From positions 1 through 15,741 of the forward strand of contig JAPULM010000070.1 in assembly GCA_027294925.1 (NCBI GenBank): a DNA stretch of 15,741 nt. Direction: 5' to 3'. The DNA is from a bacterium. Lineage in GTDB: Bacteria > Tectomicrobia > Entotheonellia > Entotheonellales > Entotheonellaceae. This document shows, piece by piece, positions 1-14,581 of the stretch (position 1 is its first letter; each line of letters opens with the position of its first letter). Made by a program: the position numbers and the translations under genes. The notes below the pieces were generated by a model. That model was not told the DNA's origin, did not search any database, and was given only the letters and a program-made list of their open reading frames with translations.

Positions 1-3000
1 GAGGTGCAGCGTGTGAACCTGACCACAGCGATTGGTTCATCATTGGTCAATACCTTGTACATTCTTGACGAGCCAAGCATTGGCTTGCACCCGCGCGACA
101 GTCGCCGCCTAGTGCAAATTCTTCACAACCTGAAGGCAAACCACAACACCATCGTGGTGGTTGAGCACGATCCTGAAATTATTCGGGAAAGCGACCGGAT
201 TCTGGATCTCGGCCCGGGTGCCGGCGAACAGGGCGGTGAAATTGTCTATTTTGGCGAGCCTGCCGGTATTCTGAAGGAGAAACGTTCTCTAACCGGACAA
301 TACCTGTCTGGCAAACGGCGCATCACGATGCCGACACAACGCCGTAAACCACGGCGCAACAACGCGCTTACCATTGGCGGCGCGTGCCAGCATAATTTGA
401 AGAACATTGATGTCGTCATTCCGTTAGGCATGTTGGTCTGCGTCACTGGTGTTTCCGGCTCGGGCAAGAGTACTCTGGTGCATAACGTGCTCTACAATGG
501 CTTACAAAAAGCGCGCGGTATTGTCGTTGGGCAGGTGGGTGCCTGCCGCAGCATTCAAGGCGGTAAGCATCTTGATGACATCATCATGGTTGATCAATCG
601 CCCATTGGCCGCACCCCTCGCGCCAACCCGGTGACCTACGTCAGAGCCTACACGCACATTCGACGTCTGTTTGGCACGACTCAAGCTGCTAAGGCGAACA
701 TGTTCACAGCCAGCACATTTTCGTTCAATGTCGTCGGTGGACGCTGTGAAACTTGTGAAGGGAGCGGCTTTGAAAAAGTTGAAATGCAATTCCTCTCTGA
801 CATTTTTGTGACCTGCCCGGATTGCGAGGGGGCACGTTTTCGCCCAGAGGTGTTGGAGGTCACCTATGAGGGCAAAACCATCGCCGAGGTCTTGCGGCTT
901 ACGGTGTCGGAAGCTGTCGTCTTTTTCCGCCATATGCCGGCCATTATTGAAGCCCTGCAGCCGTTAGAAGAAGTTGGACTGGACTATATTCGTCTAGGTC
1001 AACCCCTGAATACCCTCTCAGGCGGCGAATCACAGCGGCTCAAACTGGCATCTCATATGCGCCTGCAGGGCGATAGCAAATGCCTCTTGATCTTTGATGA
1101 GCCAACCACAGGCCTCCACTTTGAAGATATTCGCAAATTATTAGAGGCGTTTAATCGGCTGTTACAACAAGGCCATTCCTTGTTGGTTATCGAGCACAAT
1201 ATGGAAGTCGTCAAGTGCGCCGATTATCTCATTGACCTGGGTCCGGAAGGCGGCGATGCCGGCGGGCACGTCGTGGTTTGTGGAACTCCGGAAACAGTCA
1301 GTCAGTGCCAGGCATCCTATACCGGCCAGTTCCTGCGCCCCTACCTCAAGGATAAAGCTGCCAACATCTATCGTTTAGCCCGCCCCCATACCACAACGCC
1401 GTCGCTTCCCAAGCAGCAGGCCATTACGGTTAGCGGCGCACGCGAACACAACCTGAAAAATATTGAGGTACGCATTCCACGCGATCAATTTGTGGTAATC
1501 ACTGGTTTGAGCGGATCGGGAAAATCGACCCTGGCTTTCGACATTATCTTCGCCGAAGGACAACGTCGCTATATGGAGAGCTTGTCCGTCTACGTGCGAC
1601 AATTCCTCACCCTGTCCAGTAAACCAGAGGTTGACTTCGTCCACGGCGTACCGCCAACGGTAGCCATCGAACAACGCGTCACACGAGGTGGCAGTAAATC
1701 CACCGTGTCAACGGTAACCGAGGTGTATCACTATCTACGCCTCCTCTACGCCAAGATTGGTGTACAACACTGCCCAGGTTGTGATCGGCGTATCACCTCC
1801 CAAACTGCCGAGCAAATTCTGACCCACCTCATCACCACCTATCAGGGACGGCAGGTTACCTTCCTAGCGCCGATCGTCCAAGGGCGCAAAGGCTTTCACA
1901 AAGAGGTTTTCCTGCAGGCTGAAAAGGTAGGTTTGAGTCATCTACGGATCGACGGCGACATCGTCGCTTTAGCCGAGCGTCCATCGCTCGGCCGCTATCA
2001 AGAACACGATATTGACTTTGTTATTGGGGCAACGATGATCAGCAGCAAACGCCGGCAGATCATACAGAAATTACTCGCTCGTGGCCTGGAATTCGGACAA
2101 GGGGCTTGCACGGTACTTATCGATACACAACAGGAACATCTCTATAGCTTAAGATTCTTTTGCCCGCGATGTAGTCTGAGTTTTGCCGACTTGGACCCAC
2201 GCCTATTTTCCTTTAATAGCCGCCGCGGCGCCTGCCCGGCATGTAACGGCATGGGCGTTACCTATGATTTTGATTTGTCGCTCATGCTACCTGACCCTCA
2301 ACTGTCGCTACGCCAAAATGCCTTTGCCGTCTACAATGGTGGGCCGTTTAAGAAGCGCCACCGTGAACGATTTCTCAAACGCACGGCTAAGATCCTGGGC
2401 ATCAACCTGGACACGCCATTTGCCAAGCTTCGTCAACGCCAACGTCAGGCCCTATGGCACGGCATTGGAGAAGGCGAGGATGGCTTTGAAGGTGTGTTAC
2501 CCCATTGCCGCCGACTGCTGGAAAGCAGCTCTCGCGACAGTATCAAACAATACCTGGAACCGTTTATGAACCAAGTCGTATGCAATGCCTGCGACGGCGC
2601 TCGTCTACGTCCCCAGGCTCAAGCCGTTCGTATTGCCGGGCATTCGATCTATGACATCGTTGCACTGTCGGTAGATGCCGCTTTAGTCCGTATACAGAAA
2701 CTAGCCCTTGCAGATCGAGATGCACAGATTGCAGATCCGGTGCTAAAAGAAGTTCAGTCGCGCTTACGATGCATACAAGAAGTGGGGCTCGGTTATCTGA
2801 CCCTCGACCGCCGCAGTGACACGCTGTCCGGCGGCGAAGCCCAGCGCCTACGCTTAGCCGCCCAGCTTGGCTCTAATTTACGCGGCGTCTGCTATGTCCT
2901 GGATGAACCAACAATTGGCCTGCACCCACGCGACAATGGGCGGCTGTTAAACACGCTGGAACGCTTAAAAAGCCAGGGTAACAGCATCGTCGTGGTCGAA

Positions 3001-4197
3001 CATGATGAAGAAACGATCCGGCGTGCAGATTATGTGGTCGACCTCGGGCCAGGCGCCGGTAGACAAGGCGGCAAGGTCGTGGCGACGGGGACACCGGCGC
3101 AACTGGCTCAGTGTCCCGAATCGATTACCGGACGCTACCTGAACAACGGCTGGCATCAACAACCTAGTGTTCCTCAGCGATCACTCGACGAGCGCTCTTG
3201 GCTAACGGTGCATGGCGCTCGAGAACACAACTTAAAAAATATTGACGTGAGTCTCCCGCTGGAAACCTTTATCGCCATCACGGGTGTCTCCGGTTCAGGC
3301 AAGAGCACGTTAATCAAGCACACCCTCTACAATGCACTACGCAAACGCTTAACCGCTTTCAACGGGCGTGTTGGTGCTCACAACGGCCTAAGTGGTGTCG
3401 AACCCTTGCGGCGCGTTCTAGAGGTCGATCACACCCCCATTGGTAAAACACCGCGTTCGAACCCAGCCACTTATGTCGGCTTTTATGACGATATTCGCCG
3501 CTTGCTATCCCAAACCCCGGAGGCGCGGATGCGCGGCTATACACCTGGCCGTTTTTCATTCAACGTTAAAGATGGCCGTTGTGCCACCTGTGCCGGACAG
3601 GGTCAACGCAAAATCGAAATGAGTTTTCTGCCTAACGTCTTTGTTAGGTGCGAAAGCTGCAACGGTAACCGCTATACCGAAGACACCTTGGCAATCACTT
3701 ACAACGGCAAGCACGCCGCAGCGCTTTTGGCCATGACCATATCGGAGGCTCTGGTGTTTTTTGACAGCGTGGCCAAAATTAAACGGCCGCTGCAAATTCT
3801 CGAAGACGCCGGATTGGGCTATCTTCCGCTGGGTCAACCTAGCAATACCCTTTCGGGAGGCGAAGCACAGCGCATCAAGCTTGCTTATGAATTAAGTCGT
3901 TCGGCGCAGCCGGGAACACTTTATATTCTGGATGAACCCACCACCGGTCTCCATTTGGCGGATATCGAGAAACTCCTACATGTATTACAATCACTGGTGG
4001 AGCAGGGTAATACAGTGGTGGTTATCGAGCACAACCTTGACGTCATCCGGCAAGCCGATTACATCATTGACCTAGGCCCTGAAGGCGGCGATGCCGGTGG
4101 TGAAGTGGTCATTACCGGATCGCCAAACGATCTTGTGAAACATCCTGAAGCATCATACACCAGTCGCTTCTTACAAGCGCATCTCAAGAGGCATTAA
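1..4197 (+). CDS. uvrA: Tandem (double-length) UvrA excinuclease ABC subunit A, 5' end outside the window
   Basis: UvrA is the ATP-dependent DNA damage sensor of nucleotide excision repair and loads UvrB. The 1,398 codons in the window hold more than one UvrA. Counting from position 4, the sequence opens inside an ABC signature motif, followed by Walker B (LYILDEPSIGLHPRD, residues about 17-31). Then comes the second nucleotide-binding half of module one: Walker A GVSGSGKST near residue 150, a CxxC...CxxC zinc finger near 247-275, LSGGESQR near 338. A complete second UvrA follows: Walker A near 501, CPGC and CPRC/CPAC zinc sites, LSGGEAQR near 941, then a last half with Walker A near 1094, CATC...CESC zinc finger and LSGGEAQR near 1283. 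All motifs look intact in both modules. Normal UvrA is about 940 residues; chlamydial UvrA is a comparable tandem fusion of about 1,790. The reading frame is open at base 1, so the true start lies upstream. It ends 1 nt before the next gene. Confidence 0.96.
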   Translation, partial: EVQRVNLTTAIGSSLVNTLYILDEPSIGLHPRDSRRLVQILHNLKANHNTIVVVEHDPEIIRESDRILDLGPGAGEQGGEIVYFGEPAGILKEKRSLTGQYLSGKRRITMPTQRRKPRRNNALTIGGACQHNLKNIDVVIPLGMLVCVTGVSGSGKSTLVHNVLYNGLQKARGIVVGQVGACRSIQGGKHLDDIIMVDQSPIGRTPRANPVTYVRAYTHIRRLFGTTQAAKANMFTASTFSFNVVGGRCETCEGSGFEKVEMQFLSDIFVTCPDCEGARFRPEVLEVTYEGKTIAEVLRLTVSEAVVFFRHMPAIIEALQPLEEVGLDYIRLGQPLNTLSGGESQRLKLASHMRLQGDSKCLLIFDEPTTGLHFEDIRKLLEAFNRLLQQGHSLLVIEHNMEVVKCADYLIDLGPEGGDAGGHVVVCGTPETVSQCQASYTGQFLRPYLKDKAANIYRLARPHTTTPSLPKQQAITVSGAREHNLKNIEVRIPRDQFVVITGLSGSGKSTLAFDIIFAEGQRRYMESLSVYVRQFLTLSSKPEVDFVHGVPPTVAIEQRVTRGGSKSTVSTVTEVYHYLRLLYAKIGVQHCPGCDRRITSQTAEQILTHLITTYQGRQVTFLAPIVQGRKGFHKEVFLQAEKVGLSHLRIDGDIVALAERPSLGRYQEHDIDFVIGATMISSKRRQIIQKLLARGLEFGQGACTVLIDTQQEHLYSLRFFCPRCSLSFADLDPRLFSFNSRRGACPACNGMGVTYDFDLSLMLPDPQLSLRQNAFAVYNGGPFKKRHRERFLKRTAKILGINLDTPFAKLRQRQRQALWHGIGEGEDGFEGVLPHCRRLLESSSRDSIKQYLEPFMNQVVCNACDGARLRPQAQAVRIAGHSIYDIVALSVDAALVRIQKLALADRDAQIADPVLKEVQSRLRCIQEVGLGYLTLDRRSDTLSGGEAQRLRLAAQLGSNLRGVCYVLDEPTIGLHPRDNGRLLNTLERLKSQGNSIVVVEHDEETIRRADYVVDLGPGAGRQGGKVVATGTPAQLAQCPESITGRYLNNGWHQQPSVPQRSLDERSWLTVHGAREHNLKNIDVSLPLETFIAITGVSGSGKSTLIKHTLYNALRKRLTAFNGRVGAHNGLSGVEPLRRVLEVDHTPIGKTPRSNPATYVGFYDDIRRLLSQTPEARMRGYTPGRFSFNVKDGRCATCAGQGQRKIEMSFLPNVFVRCESCNGNRYTEDTLAITYNGKHAAALLAMTISEALVFFDSVAKIKRPLQILEDAGLGYLPLGQPSNTLSGGEAQRIKLAYELSRSAQPGTLYILDEPTTGLHLADIEKLLHVLQSLVEQGNTVVVIEHNLDVIRQADYIIDLGPEGGDAGGEVVITGSPNDLVKHPEASYTSRFLQAHLKRH

Positions 4198-6840: not shown

Positions 6841-8269
6841 ATGTTGCAAAAGCGTCTTTTCATTATCCTGGTTAGCGGATTCTTAAGTTGGGGTTGTGCT
6901 TTTGATCAACAGTTTGATCAAAGTCCGGCATGGCCTTTGTGCGGACGTATCGCCGCCAACCGGCCGGATGGACAGCAACCGACGGCTGTACACCTGAACA
7001 CTGGGGGAATACCGCAGAGACTGACCTGCCAATCGCCTCACCCTTTGGACCTCGCCCCCTGGCCTCTGAAAATGACCGCTATGACTTCCATCGCGGTATC
7101 GATATTGCCACTGACGTCGGCACGCCAGTGTTCGCCATCGCCGATGGGGTGATCAAAATCGCCGGCGAGCACGCTAGCTATTCGGATCCGCTGGTGCAAA
7201 TACGGCATTATCGTCCGGGCTATTCATCTTGCCAGGAAGTTGGCTGCTACCATAGCAATTCCATGCACTTGAGCAGCGCTGTCGTGAACGTCGATGATGT
7301 CGTCAACAAGGGTGATTAATTGGTTATACCGGCATAAGCGCCAGCGGTTTTGCTCATCTGCACTTCGAAATTCGCGACGCCCCGGCTTTCGACCCTTTTA
7401 GCCGCTGGCAACGGGACGCCATTCACCCCCTGGAGGTACTCCCCTATCAGAGTACAGAGCCGCTCGCCATCACTTTTGACGCCGTTGATATCCATACACC
7501 AAACGCACCTATCGTACGGGTGATTGTACAGACCGCACGGGTTGATGTAAAACGCGTTGAACTTGAGCTCTATGACAGTAACCAGAACTTGATTCCACAA
7601 CCTGGCAATGTGCCGGATGCAAACGGATACAATGAGCATCCTGCCTGGTTTGACATGAATGTGTGGAACTTCCAATACACGCACAAGAATAGCACCAATT
7701 TCCCCTGGGAAAGTTTTGGCTTGGGCGGTGCCAACGAATGCCCATACTATGCCGAACATGGCGCCTCCTACGATGCGCACATCCATCTGGATGCGCAAGA
7801 TCCGGCCGATTTTCACATGGGTCGGTTTAACGGTGTAATCATCCAGCCAAACAAATACGTGCTGGGCAACTATTCTTTAAGCCTCACCTTTGAACAATTG
7901 CAGGGACCCGCCAATTGTATTGTTGCCAATGTGCTGCTGGCCACCGGAGATGTTTCCACCACCCAATGGGGTAATTGTCAAGGTTCATTTGCCCCGTAGG
8001 CCGATGCCAGGCGGTTACTGTCGATGGCGACACATCGAGCGCCTCTGTGGTAAGCGGCCCAATCCTACGGCATGCTGACAGGTGTAGGCGCACAACGAAC
8101 CTATACACCGAGTGCCGGCTACACCGGGGCAGACATGTTCACCTTTAGGATGAGCGATGGGAATGGTGGTAGTGATCGTGCAACCGTATTCATTACGGTC
8201 AACAAAGGCAAAGGCGGAAATAACCAAGGCAACGGTGGCCCAGATAAACCAAGAAATGGCAAGAAGTAG
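6841..8269 (+). pseudogene. Decayed lipoprotein M23 metallopeptidase with C-terminal Ig-like domain
   Basis: The remnant starts at an ATG after a strong GGAGGAG site. It encodes a lipoprotein signal (hydrophobic core, then LSWGC lipobox, Cys19) in frame 1. Between about 6918 and 7040 the homologous reading moves to frame 3, giving SPFGPR and YDFHRGIDI, the first zinc-site half (H-x3-D) of M23 peptidases, which cut peptidoglycan cross-links. At 7314-7319 the frame ends in TAA; reading one base back (7316, frame 2) restores LIGYTGISASGFAHLHFEIR, the HxH half of the zinc site, and continues to a TAG at 7997. Shifted pieces (AVTVDGDTSSAS at 8011 in frame 1, then [21 protein letters not shown] in frame 2) give an Ig-like/cadherin-like repeat of surface proteins, ending at 8269 in a Gly/Asn/Lys-rich tail. 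Three or more frameshifts plus a stop indicate a pseudogene. Clustered sequencing error is less likely because neighbouring kilobases are clean. Confidence 0.8.
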
Positions 8270-8730: not shown

Positions 8731-8924
8731 GGTATACATCAATCAGTTGGCCTCACTAGGATGGTCAGATTGCTTCCAGATAGTACCAAAGACCCTTTCA
8801 AGCCCTTCTTCACTTCAATCACCCAAATGGCTTGTTGGATGATTAGATGCGAAGACCTCTGGACGAGGTAAAAAAAGGTGGTATGATCGACAGATTAGAC
8901 ATCATCAGGCCGGGAGAGGTAGTC

Positions 8925-9905
8925 ATGCCAAATATTCTTATAACGGCACGCTATTTTGCTGTTGATCCTCAGCCATTAGAATTACTTCAGCGTCACGGCT
9001 GCACCATCCGGCAGCAGGATATTAACTGGACACAGGGTGACGGCAACGTGTCGGAAGCGAGAGCCATCGACCTATTGCATGAGGTAGACGCCGCGATTAT
9101 CTCGTCATTGCCGCTCACTGAAGCAGTGTTTGACAACACGCCGCAGCTCAAAATCGTTGCTATTCGTGGCGTTGGCTATGATTCGGTGGACATTAATGCC
9201 GCTACATCTCGCAGCATCCCCGTGGTGGTCGCAGCCGGCTTTACCGACAGCGTGGCTGACTATGTATTCGGGCTCATGCTGGCTGTCACCCGACAGGTGG
9301 CGGCAGCAGATCGTATGGTACGTGACGGGCGTTGGGACGTCCTGGTCAGCACCAATATCTGCCGCAAAAGGCTTGGCATTATTGGTCTGGGCCGCATTGG
9401 CAAAGCTGTTGCACGGCGGGCGCAGGGCTTTGAAATGCCATTGTTGGCAACCGATGTGGTACAAGATACGGCTTTTGCCCAACAGTACGGTATTACCTAT
9501 GTATCCTTGGCGGAACTTTTACAACAAGCCGATATCGTGTCGATCAATGCACCACTGCGGCATGACACACGTCACCTCATTGATCGTGATGCTCTACGCC
9601 TGATGAAACCGACCGCTGTTCTGATCAACACGGCACGCGGCGACTTGATCGATGAGGCAGCATTGGCCAACGCGCTGCGCGAGGGGCGTCTGGCAGGAGC
9701 GGGGCTTGACGTGTTTCACGACGAACCGTTACAGCATAATCCCTACCAGGGCCTGGACAATGTTGTGTTGTCGCCCCATCTCGCCGCCTACAGCAGGGAA
9801 GGATTGCGAGAAAGCGGTATCTTAGCGGCACGCGCCGTGCTCACCGTGCTCGAGGGCGGGCAACCGGAACCAGTGGTGCTGGTCAATCCGGAGGTCTATC
9901 GTTAA
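8925..9905 (+). CDS. D-isomer-specific 2-hydroxyacid dehydrogenase (NAD-dependent)
   Basis: A 326-residue enzyme of the D-2-hydroxyacid dehydrogenase family (phosphoglycerate, glyoxylate/hydroxypyruvate, D-lactate and C-terminal-binding-protein-like members), which interconverts 2-oxoacids and D-2-hydroxyacids with NAD(H). Counting from 8925, the Rossmann motif GLGRIG is at 154-159 with D177 suggesting NAD preference. The catalytic residues are R238 (NTARGDLID), E267 (DVFHDEP) and H285 (LSPHLAAYS). The substrate-loop glycines in AIRGVGYDSVD are present. The start at 8925 is chosen because MPNILITARYF begins directly in the first beta strand and GGGAGAGG lies 7 nt upstream; an upstream ATG at 8847 in the same frame adds residues unlike the family. 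It precedes the 353-residue protein by 71 nt and may share an operon with it. Substrate is not determinable. Confidence 0.93.
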   Translation: MPNILITARYFAVDPQPLELLQRHGCTIRQQDINWTQGDGNVSEARAIDLLHEVDAAIISSLPLTEAVFDNTPQLKIVAIRGVGYDSVDINAATSRSIPVVVAAGFTDSVADYVFGLMLAVTRQVAAADRMVRDGRWDVLVSTNICRKRLGIIGLGRIGKAVARRAQGFEMPLLATDVVQDTAFAQQYGITYVSLAELLQQADIVSINAPLRHDTRHLIDRDALRLMKPTAVLINTARGDLIDEAALANALREGRLAGAGLDVFHDEPLQHNPYQGLDNVVLSPHLAAYSREGLRESGILAARAVLTVLEGGQPEPVVLVNPEVYR

Positions 9906-9976: not shown

Positions 9977-11038
9977 ATGACGTTACCTACTCAATCTTTG
10001 CAATCGGCCACCTATGAGTTGCCCGACATGTTGGAGGTGAATGAATTTTACCAGGACAAAGGCTGGACAGATGGTCTGCCGATTATACCGCCGACAGAAG
10101 AGCTGGTGCTCGCCTGCCTTGAAGCCGGTGGCTTAGAAGCGGCTGACGTGGTAGGTGTCGAGCGGCTGCGAGAGCGACCGATTATCGCCGAGAAAGTTGC
10201 TGTTAATGCGGTCATGGCCGGCTGTAAGCCGGCCTATATGCCGGTGGTAGTGGCCGTTGTACGTGCGATGTGCCAGGAGCCGTTTAATTTGCATGGCAGC
10301 ACAGCCAGCACGGGCGGTAGCGCACCATTCATCATTGTAAATGGCCCCATCCGCAATGCAATTGGCCTGAATGCAACGCACAATGTATTGGCAAACAGTA
10401 GTCGAGCCAATGCCACTATCGGCCGTGCCATCCGTCTGCTGCTGATCAATGTGCTCGGCTGTATTCCAGGGCAGCTTGACCGTTCAACACTCGGACATCC
10501 GGGCAAGTTCACATTTTGTGTGGCGGAAGACGAAGAAGACAGTCCATGGACACCGCTGGCGCAAGAACGCGGCGTTCCACAAGGCGTGTCTGGTGTCACC
10601 GTCATGGCATGCGAAGCGCCACGCCAGGCGATGAACGAGTGGACACATGATCCGGAAGAAATTGTCGAGACGTTTGCCGCCGAAATGCGGCATAATATGC
10701 TAACCTATTCGGTTTGGTCTGGCAATTATGTCCTGATTATTCCAAAACAATTGCGTGAACTCATCACGGCTGCCGGCTGGACCAAAGATGACATTCGCGA
10801 GTATATATTTCGTTCTGCCCGTGTATTCCGGCACCAGTGGGCCACCGTGGGCAAAGCCAATATCGTGCATCGCAGTGGCGGCCCAAAGCAGGAATTCACC
10901 GCGCTGCGGGTGCCAGAGGATCTGCTTGTGGTTGCCGCCGGCGGCCCAGCCGGCGGCTTTGGTGCCATTATTCCTCCCTGGCTGGGCTCCAAAGCTAAAG
11001 CCATAACACAAGCAATTGATCACGAAAAAACGACTTGA
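9977..11038 (+). CDS. Conserved-looking protein of unknown function, next to a UGSC selenoprotein
   Basis: I cannot assign this 353-residue protein to a characterised family. It reads as a well-formed soluble protein: an N-terminal KGWTDGLPIIPPTEE (residues 28-42), a HGSTASTGGSAPFIIVNGPIR stretch in two parts near 106-126, GLNATHNVLANSSRANATIG (130-149), and a glycine-rich AAGGPAGGFGAIIPPWLG (320-337). Cysteines lie at 47, 83, 99, 162, 181 and 212 without a CxxC pair. No signal peptide or strong membrane helix is apparent. The small-residue-rich, Gly/Asn/Ser motifs suggest ligand or cofactor contacts, but that is only inference. It lies between a hydroxyacid dehydrogenase and a selenoprotein in the same direction with 71- and 82-nt gaps, so a joint role is plausible. 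The start ATG at 9977 has AAGG 9 nt upstream. Confidence 0.85.
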   Translation: MTLPTQSLQSATYELPDMLEVNEFYQDKGWTDGLPIIPPTEELVLACLEAGGLEAADVVGVERLRERPIIAEKVAVNAVMAGCKPAYMPVVVAVVRAMCQEPFNLHGSTASTGGSAPFIIVNGPIRNAIGLNATHNVLANSSRANATIGRAIRLLLINVLGCIPGQLDRSTLGHPGKFTFCVAEDEEDSPWTPLAQERGVPQGVSGVTVMACEAPRQAMNEWTHDPEEIVETFAAEMRHNMLTYSVWSGNYVLIIPKQLRELITAAGWTKDDIREYIFRSARVFRHQWATVGKANIVHRSGGPKQEFTALRVPEDLLVVAAGGPAGGFGAIIPPWLGSKAKAITQAIDHEKTT

Positions 11039-11104: not shown

Positions 11105-11111
11105 AAGGGAG
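11105..11111 (+). promoter_or_regulatory. Ribosome binding site that fixes the selenoprotein start
   Basis: AAGGGAG lies 9 nt before the ATG at 11121. It supports that ATG over an earlier in-frame ATG at 11016, which lies inside the preceding gene and would add an unstructured, out-of-family leader. Confidence 0.6.
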
Positions 11112-11120
11112 AACCGTGTT

Positions 11121-11645
11121 ATGCGTATTCGTGTACTTGATCCGACTGCCGAAGTAACCGTCGCTACGGCCGCTATCCCAGAGCGTCTGGAGGCACTACA
11201 GGGTCGAACGATCGGCTTGCTGGACAATGGTAAAATCCACGTGCGTGAACTGCTCGACCATATGGAAGAGATCCTTCGGTCTCAGCATGGGGTCAGCCAT
11301 GTGTTACGATTCAAGAAGCCCGATGCAAGTCGTCCGGCGCCGGACGCGGTCATCGCAGACATGAAGCAGTGCGACGCCATCATTTCCGCGGTAGGGGATT
11401 GAGGCAGCTGCTCGTCGTGCAGTTTGCACGATGCTGTTACGGCTGAAAAAGCCGGCATTGCCGCCACTGCCATCATTACCGATCGATTTGTCCAAACAGC
11501 CCAGACGATGGCTGAGGTGTCAGGCCGTCCGGCATTTCCATTTGTCACCATTTCGCATCCGATTGCAAACAACGACAACGCTGTCCTCCGTAGCAAGGCG
11601 GAAACGGCCGTTGCACAGTGTCTGAAGATTTTGTCGAAGGGTTAG
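11121..11645 (+). CDS. UGSC-family selenoprotein with in-frame UGA (selenocysteine 94)
   Basis: The frame from ATG 11121 runs to a TGA at 11400-11402 and continues in the same frame without interruption to TAG at 11643-11645, giving 174 residues if UGA is read as selenocysteine. The surrounding motif is AVGD-U-GSCSSCSLHDA, with Sec94, Cys97, Cys100, His103 and Asp104. This fits the UGSC family of (seleno)proteins, whose members have U or C at this place followed by GSC. The N-terminal part (MRIRVLDPTAEVTV, TIGLLDNGKIHVRELLDHME) and the part after UGA (GIAATAIITDRF, PFVTISHPI) read as one alternating alpha/beta fold, so both halves belong together. A bacterial SECIS-like hairpin starts 12 nt past the UGA. 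The Sec/Cys cluster suggests a redox role, but no reaction is known to me. The selenocysteine insertion genes (selA, selB, selC, selD) are not in the window. Conventional gene calling would split or truncate this gene. Confidence 0.88.
11403..11436 (+). promoter_or_regulatory. Bacterial SECIS element downstream of the UGA
   Basis: TCGTGCA (11415-11421) pairs perfectly with TGCACGA (11425-11431) around a GTT loop (11422-11424). G-U and C-G pairs (11414/11432, 11413/11433) can extend the stem, or CAGC (11405-11408) can pair with GCTG (11433-11436) as a lower stem. The loop begins 19 nt after the UGA and starts with G followed by U, within the range described for bacterial SECIS hairpins bound by SelB. 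Confidence 0.78.
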
Positions 11646-11704: not shown

Positions 11705-12277
11705 TGCCACAAACGCCTGGCGGACACCATGGAGGGACGTTGGCTGATTCTAAGCGGCTCTCTCATTCTGGTGCTGGTCTATGTGCTCATTGCTACGATT
11801 GATGTTTGGACTGACATCTGGGTGATCGTTGCATTGCTTATGGTCCAGAATCTGGCGCGCGGCTTGATTCAGACACCCATTATGACTATCGTGATGTCAA
11901 GTCTACCTGATGACCAAGTACGTATGGGTGCAGGGCTACGCGGACTCCTAAATAGCCTAGGCAGTACGTTCGGGGTGGCGTTTGCCGGTTACTGGTTACA
12001 ACAGCGGCTGGCAATACGGACCCGCTTGTTACAGGAAGATCAGCACCTGGCGGCGTTCGATGTGACATATCTTACCAATGAACTGCGTCGGCAGTTGCTT
12101 GCAGCGGGCGAGGTGGGCATGACACTACACGCTAAAATCCAGGTCGTCCTTAACCGGTGGTTGGCGCAAGAAGCATCAACCCTCGCCTATCATGATATGT
12201 TTATCCTGATGGCTCTCATTGTCTTGTTGGCCGCCATCCCTGTTGTTTGGTTGCGGCATCGGCGGGTGTCTGCTTAG
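11705..12277 (+). pseudogene. C-terminal remnant of a DHA2 (EmrB/QacA-type) MFS drug exporter
   Basis: The frame encodes only the last part of a 14-helix proton-driven multidrug exporter. Visible parts are RLADTMEGRWLILSG, hydrophobic segments (LILVLVYVLIATI; WVIVALLMVQNL), the family-like QTPIMTIVMSSLPDDQVRMG and a glycine-containing helix LRGLLNSLGSTFGVAFAGYW, then a loop of about 80 residues and a last helix FILMALIVLLAAIPVVW before a short basic tail. The N-terminal eight to ten helices, including the substrate and proton-coupling motifs, are absent: a TAA at 11702-11704 blocks the frame and upstream sequence is unrelated. Translation from the ATG at 11729 would give 182 residues, unlikely to transport anything. 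A deletion or recombination joint near 11700-11710 is the simplest reading. It converges on the antiporter gene with 35 nt between the ends. Confidence 0.8.
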
Positions 12278-13708: not shown

Positions 13709-14581
13709 ATGCGCATTCTGCTAACGGGTGGCGCAGGTGATCTCTGCACCATTCTTACCCCCCTGTTGGAACAGCGGCGTGATACCCCGTTGCGTTTGGA
13801 TATTCGACCGCCGCTGGATTCACACGGTATCTACTTGCAAGGATCAATTTTGAATCGCGCCTGTCTCGCCAAGGCTTGTGTGGAGGTAGACTGTGTTGTG
13901 CATATTGCGGCCTGGCATGGTTTGCATGACGCCGCAGGCCTTAAGGATGTATACGCGTTTTGGGACCTCAACGTCACCGGAACGTTCAACGTATTCGAAG
14001 CTGCAGCGCGCGCCGGTATTCAGAAGGTCATTTACATCTCCAGCTCAAGCGTCAGGAGCCGGCACAGCATCTATGGACATACCAAAGTTTTGGGTGAGGA
14101 GATTGCCCAGACCTACGCAGCACGGCATGCGATGAACGTGGTGACGCTGCGTCCGCGTGGCTTTATCCCACACTGGAATCGGGCCACGTACACATCGTTT
14201 ATAGGCTGGGCGCAGTGGTTTTGGCGCGGCGCTGTACATATTAATGATGTCGCTCAAGCTGTGCTGAAAAGCCGCGACTTACTTGCCACCACAAGGTTAG
14301 ATTGTAACTTGGTGCTGCCTGTGGATGGGGCGTATGAGTACACCGATGAAGATTTGCAACAATGGGACAAGCGAGGATCGGGCACGACGTTTAAAACGTA
14401 TTACCCGGCCTACTACGAGTTGGCGCTTCGGTACGGCTTGAATCCGGCCGAAAAACCGACCAAACTCGACCTCTCAGAGAGCCGGAAATGGCTGGGTTAT
14501 AAACCCGTCTATAGCCTCAAAAATTTGCTCGAAGAGCTTGAGCGCTACGGTGCCGAGGGACCACCACCGCCATTTTCGTGA
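13709..14581 (+). CDS. NAD-dependent epimerase/dehydratase (extended short-chain dehydrogenase/reductase)
   Basis: A 290-residue extended SDR. It begins with MRILLTGGAGDLCTI, the Rossmann nucleotide-binding loop, and an acidic residue D31 after the second strand (LRLDIRPP) suggests NAD rather than NADP. The catalytic set is S111-S114 (ISSSSV) with Y122-x3-K126 (IYGHTK), and LNVTGTFNVFEAA is the family's usual fourth-helix pattern. The third glycine of the TGxxGxxG motif is replaced by Cys13, which is atypical. Members act on nucleotide sugars, uronates or steroid-like alcohols; no sugar-pathway neighbours indicate which. Ribosome binding is unclear: AAGGTGG lies about 12 nt upstream and GGAAGGAGG further out. 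It is divergent from the antiporter and 45 nt before a small ORF leading to a diiron protein. Confidence 0.9.
   Translation: MRILLTGGAGDLCTILTPLLEQRRDTPLRLDIRPPLDSHGIYLQGSILNRACLAKACVEVDCVVHIAAWHGLHDAAGLKDVYAFWDLNVTGTFNVFEAAARAGIQKVIYISSSSVRSRHSIYGHTKVLGEEIAQTYAARHAMNVVTLRPRGFIPHWNRATYTSFIGWAQWFWRGAVHINDVAQAVLKSRDLLATTRLDCNLVLPVDGAYEYTDEDLQQWDKRGSGTTFKTYYPAYYELALRYGLNPAEKPTKLDLSESRKWLGYKPVYSLKNLLEELERYGAEGPPPPFS

Follow-up and report, generated by a model that had tools for sequence, protein, structure and literature searches.

The window analysed here is the whole stretch of 15,741 nucleotides (nt) at positions 1 to 15,741 of contig JAPULM010000070.1 (assembly GCA_027294925.1), from a bacterium of the Entotheonellaceae. 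On its forward strand it carries a gene of the UGSC family (11121-11645) and, upstream on the same strand, a gene for a protein of 353 amino acids (aa), here called N353 (9977-11038). The UGSC gene is one continuous frame of 174 codons that opens with ATG at 11121, contains a single TGA at 11400-11402 and closes with TAG at 11643-11645; a possible ribosome-binding site, judged from its sequence (AAGGGAG, 11105-11111, + strand), lies 9 nt before the ATG. These coordinates confirm a sequence-only reading of the DNA, in which two open reading frames separated by the TGA had been joined, and read-through translation gives the 174-residue product proposed there, Sec94-Gly-Ser-Cys97-Ser-Ser-Cys100 with selenocysteine (Sec, U) at codon 94. 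The TGA is most likely the Sec codon of this U-G-S-C-S-S-C motif, the aligned codon in relatives being either TGA or one for Cys. Behind it lies a hairpin (11413-11433, + strand) resembling a bacterial selenocysteine insertion sequence (bSECIS).

Membership in the UGSC family, also proposed from the letters alone, is established by full-length matches above two curated cut-offs. The Pfam profile PF24696 (UGSC), searched with a Cys placed at the TGA, matches residues 4-172 (177.1 bits, cut-off 25; E = 4.6e-52), and the NCBIfam profile NF041046 matches residues 27-171 (132.8 bits, cut-off 125); both matches run through the TGA site. A protein search with the joined translation, the check that the sequence-only reading had called for, returned 17 relatives, six of them full length and aligned across the site. 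Five of the six carry Cys there; the sixth and closest, P0002, carries Trp, alone among the 18 rows of the alignment, which would fit a TGA translated under another code. Another nine measure just 95-105 aa; in eight of them the last residue is precisely the Asp that precedes the TGA position, which is what gene callers give when TGA is read as a stop; the truncation expected of standard annotation is thus found in the databases. The remaining two are a 116-aa piece with Cys and a protein of 296 aa that could not be aligned at this position.

A profile search built from 46 UGSC sequences found at least 1713 relatives, and among 149 genomes from the phylum of genome G001, UGSC occurs in 11 (20 matches, of which 15 have a single internal TGA); nine TGA loci were retrieved from this search, and in each the codon sits in D-U-G-S-C. 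Gly95, Ser96 and Cys97 are invariant in an alignment of 51 sequences, and downstream of the TGA the window protein has the conserved family positions Asp104, Gly112, His146 and Pro147. Cys100 is less conserved than the proposed motif implies: the position is Ala in 46, Ser in 37, Trp in two, Cys in two and Tyr in one of 88 Cys-form genes, and Cys in seven, Ala in three and Trp in two of 12 other TGA-form genes. A 107-row tree (14 U, with P0002 presumed U, and 93 C, one Cys gene entering twice, as L045 and L106) shows at least six changes of the U/C label, three of which well-supported branches force; it has several long branches, whose placement is unsure. The window protein pairs with P0002, and their nearest kin is a Cys group (P0003-P0006).

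Both versions of the gene can live in one genome, since two contigs, L045 (3376-3921 and 10823-11374) and L025 (123-674 on the - strand and 9989-10540), each carry one TGA-form and one Cys-form UGSC gene. Another UGSC gene that has both an in-frame TGA and this family's conserved hairpin lies on the Paracoccus versutus plasmid pTAV4 (L091, 8423-8989, + strand), at a place where the PLSDB table lists no gene.

The published bSECIS model requires a hairpin 16-37 nt downstream of the UGA, with a G among the first two loop nucleotides (PMC13188914). The window hairpin agrees with it, having a 9-bp stem (11413-11421 paired with 11425-11433) and an apical loop GUU (11422-11424), 19 nt after the UGA; in a hairpin scan, none of 200 shuffled sequences gave one equally good, and the stability of a 64-nt fold was reached by six of 200 shuffles (z = -2.29). 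The same place was compared in 13 TGA-form genes (12 sources) and 88 Cys forms (87 distinct proteins). All 13 TGA forms have a stem of 6-9 bp and a GU(U/G/C) loop 19 nt after the UGA; a stem of at least 4 bp is found at the same place in 24 of the Cys forms (6 bp in eight), and none of these 24 has a loop starting with G. In a looser scan against mononucleotide shuffles, p = 0.1 was reached by ten of the 13 TGA forms. Over eight stem pairs in the 13 sequences, 94.2% of cells are paired (82.0% in shuffles; as high in none of 500), and eight cells are changed on both sides (shuffle mean 1.6; reached in none of 500). Three stem pairs show a change on both sides, a count reached by 46 of 500 shuffles. 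The both-side changes are confined to two sequence sets (three actinobacterial rows, and L101 with L091), so the covariation events are fewer than the cells.

Selenocysteine machinery, counted as selA, selB and tRNA-Sec, was assessed in other genomes, namely those of the relatives and a comparison set. The tRNA-Sec model passed its gathering score in five of 14 control genomes; ARAGORN identified tRNA-Sec, anticodon TCA, at the four top-scoring loci, including that of G001 (the one TGA-form genome in this ARAGORN check), and a tRNA-Ser in the four loci scoring 46-49 bits, and for that reason a line of 60 bits was drawn. By this measure tRNA-Sec is present in all nine TGA-form UGSC genomes, with selA above cut-off in eight (the exception being G042) and selB in seven; the genomes G108 and G142, whose UGSC genes lack the TGA, have neither selA nor a tRNA-Sec above 60 bits.

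The Cys/TGA alternation among homologues, the conserved bSECIS-like hairpin and the machinery in other TGA-form genomes together uphold the Sec reading, and we regard it as highly probable that 11121-11645 encodes a UGSC family selenoprotein whose UGA at 11400-11402 is decoded as Sec with help from the stem-loop directly behind it. Sequence comparison makes Sec decoding in the source organism very likely. Several results weigh against this conclusion. In the 15 comparison genomes that lack UGSC, selA exceeds its cut-off in ten and tRNA-Sec reaches 60 bits in nine, and Cys-form UGSC genes also occur in genomes with tRNA-Sec (G002, G003 and G006); because Sec use is so common in the genome sample, the correlation between TGA form and machinery is supportive, not decisive. 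A 46-nt fold exceeds shuffles in stability only slightly (z = -1.38; 18 of 200 as stable), no Rfam family reaches its gathering score in the window, and in the looser scan ten of the 88 Cys forms also reach p = 0.1 and three TGA forms, all actinobacterial (L095, L025 and L045), get no further than p = 0.16 to 0.21.

The TGA could alternatively be an ordinary stop, arising from a sequencing error or from a nonsense mutation in a Cys-form gene that is undergoing decay. The codon rests on a single record, and the window does hold broken frames (a frameshifted gene that we take to be M23-peptidase-like and an apparently truncated major facilitator superfamily (MFS) transporter gene), but the TGA falls exactly at the Sec/Cys position of the family, the half downstream of it matches the UGSC profile to residue 172, the hairpin shares its place and loop with every one of the 13 TGA forms compared, and P0002 reads Trp there, as expected if its TGA was translated, presumably under another code. 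We consider this explanation very improbable. Reassignment of UGA to Trp or Gly throughout the organism (genetic code 4 or 25), which the Trp of P0002 would favour, is less probable still: Trp occurs in no other row of that alignment, the 353-aa length of N353 agrees with that of its ten best relatives (350-356 aa), and, of ten other window frames checked, two end in TGA (the gene at 9977-11038 and an epimerase gene at 13709-14581), so the code is not simply altered.

The gene at 9977-11038 appears to be a partner of UGSC. N353 has no match in Pfam or NCBIfam; a sequence search found at least 7999 relatives, and those with organism names among the best 120 belong to Candidatus Tectomicrobia, Entotheonellaceae and Binatia, groups from whose part of the tree the window may therefore derive. 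A homologue is present in 77 of 80 UGSC genome loci (absent from L004, L005 and L061). By our own gene calls it overlaps UGSC or lies within 300 nt of it in 76 of the 77, and its start codon overlaps the UGSC stop codon in 48. The nine fetched TGA loci of the 149-genome search also carry a homologue, as do L045 and L091; this tally of TGA forms leaves out the second UGSC copy of L025, which extends to the edge of its locus. Asp32, Cys83, Arg150 and Glu184 are among the residues invariant in 44 N353 sequences.

UGSC-like and N353 sequences are also found naturally fused, on a Vibrio europaeus plasmid (L094 7368-9053, 561 aa) and in L105 (1477-3198, 573 aa); the UGSC profile match of the former is weak, just under cut-off. 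The L094 fusion adjoins genes for enolase and aconitase X, and the L105 fusion adjoins a gene that, from its resemblance, we take to be an aldehyde dehydrogenase. Fusion of UGSC to a protein termed Unknown_1 was reported in 2008 (PMC2398784); Unknown_1 may be the same partner as N353. The conserved gene pairing makes it likely that the two products form one enzyme complex.

An AlphaFold2 model of the UGSC protein (predicted local distance difference test score 91.3) alternates strands and helices in a Rossmann/flavodoxin-like arrangement, in agreement with the alpha/beta fold first suggested from the sequence, and places U just before the third listed helix. The Foldseek and VIA matches listed include lumazine synthases and flavodoxin-like and receiver domains, with no thioredoxin among them, an absence that does not exclude a thioredoxin fold. 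Alignment with hhalign of UGSC to the Sec domain of GrdB/PrdB gave a probability of 81.8, E = 1.1e-5 and a score of 42.1 (best of 100 column shuffles 28.1; reversed 16.9), with U aligned on U, and the GrdB set alone scored 35.2 (shuffle best 24.0). These values suggest that UGSC is distantly related to the Sec domain of GrdB and PrdB. In genomes of the phylum of G001 we also noted seven short genes of GRDB-like type whose reading frame holds a TGA within a U-P-L/M-C motif (L110, L111, L134, L137, L139, L140 and L141), which likely encode selenoproteins too.

In the glycine reductase system, which involves thioredoxin, GrdB is described as the selenoprotein that binds the substrate and carries a UxxCxxC motif; PrdB is described as a homologue of GrdB (PMC13188914). 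A census of neighbours in 85 UGSC loci (passed through a codon-pattern filter, each cluster listed here being named from one representative) found short-chain dehydrogenases in 48, zinc alcohol dehydrogenases in 45, amidohydrolases in 28, aldehyde dehydrogenases in 26, luciferase-like oxidoreductases in 21, aconitase X in nine (its swivel subunit in seven) and dihydroxyacid-dehydratase family proteins in nine; these neighbours suggest that a small organic acid or carbonyl compound is catabolised. Thioredoxin reductase is encoded near UGSC in four of the 80 genome loci, each time with thioredoxin, and in three of the five plasmid loci.

By analogy with GrdB, we tentatively propose a reductive cleavage fed by thioredoxin. 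N353 would bind the substrate through Asp32, Cys83, Arg150 and Glu184. The selenol, which the model places after strand 86-92 and before helix 95-110, would attack the held substrate or a substrate adduct at a carbon-heteroatom bond next to a carbonyl, giving a selenenyl intermediate; Cys97 would resolve this intermediate, and thioredoxin would re-reduce the Sec94/Cys97 pair. On this basis UGSC and N353 could constitute a two-subunit reductase, widespread in bacteria and haloarchaea, that is a remote branch of the glycine and proline reductases (Stickland) with a free-standing Sec subunit, fed by thioredoxin and placed in catabolic pathways; we offer this as a working proposal, in which we place somewhat less than even confidence. 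If it is true, N353 represents a new family of substrate-binding enzyme subunits with thousands of members.

A number of observations count against the proposed mechanism. Thioredoxin genes lie near UGSC in only four of the 80 genome loci, two of them from one genus; the short PrdB-like set alone scored 28.9, below its null best of 33.9 (one shuffle); PF07355 gave no match to the window protein up to E = 10, PF24696 being the sole match; and N353 gave no clear sign of kinship to GrdE when compared by profile with a small GrdE set (n = 6), scoring 17.5 (reversed 15.2). Both natural fusions, in addition, have D-M-G-T-S in place of D-U-G-S-C, with neither U nor C, and show that some relatives do without the redox site.

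That the fusions retain the N353 residues while carrying D-M-G-T-S fits a different chemistry, in which UGSC-N353 would be a lyase or hydratase-type enzyme using Sec or Cys as a covalent nucleophile with no net redox change. Aconitase X and dihydroxyacid-dehydratase family genes among the neighbours point the same way; a Foldseek match of N353 to fumarate hydratase (E = 2.7e-3, template modelling score 0.25) is too weak to use. The invariance of Cys97 in all 51 aligned sequences, the kinship with GrdB, and the genes for thioredoxin and its reductase at several loci argue for a redox role instead, and we judge the lyase or hydratase alternative unlikely, if worth keeping in view.

The U-x-x-C spacing is that of a thioredoxin-type site and would suit UGSC proteins that are thioredoxin-fold thiol oxidoreductases. 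Such a role was suggested in 2008, and N353 would then be merely a protein client. We think this distinctly improbable: the AlphaFold2 model is Rossmann/flavodoxin-like, the structural matches listed include no thioredoxin (with the limit given above), and in the profile alignment with the GrdB Sec domain the two U residues coincide. The GrdB-like reductase is our preferred, tentative reading of the pair.

Other genes were also noted in the window. A gene of the D-2-hydroxyacid dehydrogenase family (8847-9905, + strand; family assigned by Pfam) ends 71 nt upstream of N353 and possibly belongs to the same operon; it has no match in the 80 UGSC genome loci. On the same strand, a 182-aa piece (11729-12277) matches no more than the final third of an EmrB-type MFS transporter (TIGR00711 positions 325-485), and the gene looks truncated, its front part missing. 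The gene at 6930-7999 (+ strand), which we presume to be M23-peptidase-like from an HLHFEIR motif, is split by a frameshift near 7317 and continues in another frame, indicating a broken gene or a sequencing error. A 1397-aa frame running in from the window edge (4-4197, + strand) is presumably UvrA-like, with segments of UvrA type that recur along it, a pattern seen in tandem UvrA fusions.

The UGSC-containing selenoprotein family has been in print since at least 2008 (PMC2398784) and is treated in further papers (PMC13188914, PMC9312934, PMC9402790 and PMC7539508). As far as the freely available literature on UGSC, GrdB, PrdB and glycine reductase could be searched, it assigns no function to UGSC and states no link between UGSC and GrdB; a separate partner gene N353, the thioredoxin context and the GrdB kinship were likewise not found there. 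Annotation often cuts such genes at the UGA, as the 17 relatives retrieved for the window protein against at least 7999 for N353 illustrate. The conserved partner gene, the GrdB kinship and the thioredoxin genes that accompany some UGSC copies point to a concrete two-protein complex and a testable class of reaction.

Set beside known systems, the window gene is another member of the long-known UGSC family (PF24696 and NF041046; PMC2398784): it shares the full-length profile match, the U-G-S-C motif, the alternation of Sec and Cys and the hairpin behind the UGA, and nothing was found that places it outside. UGSC differs from GrdB and PrdB (PF07355) in being much shorter, in its gene contexts and in giving no direct PF07355 match, but the two are alike in that Sec aligns on Sec and is followed by a helix, then by an E-x-x-G segment and later by a proline-containing segment.
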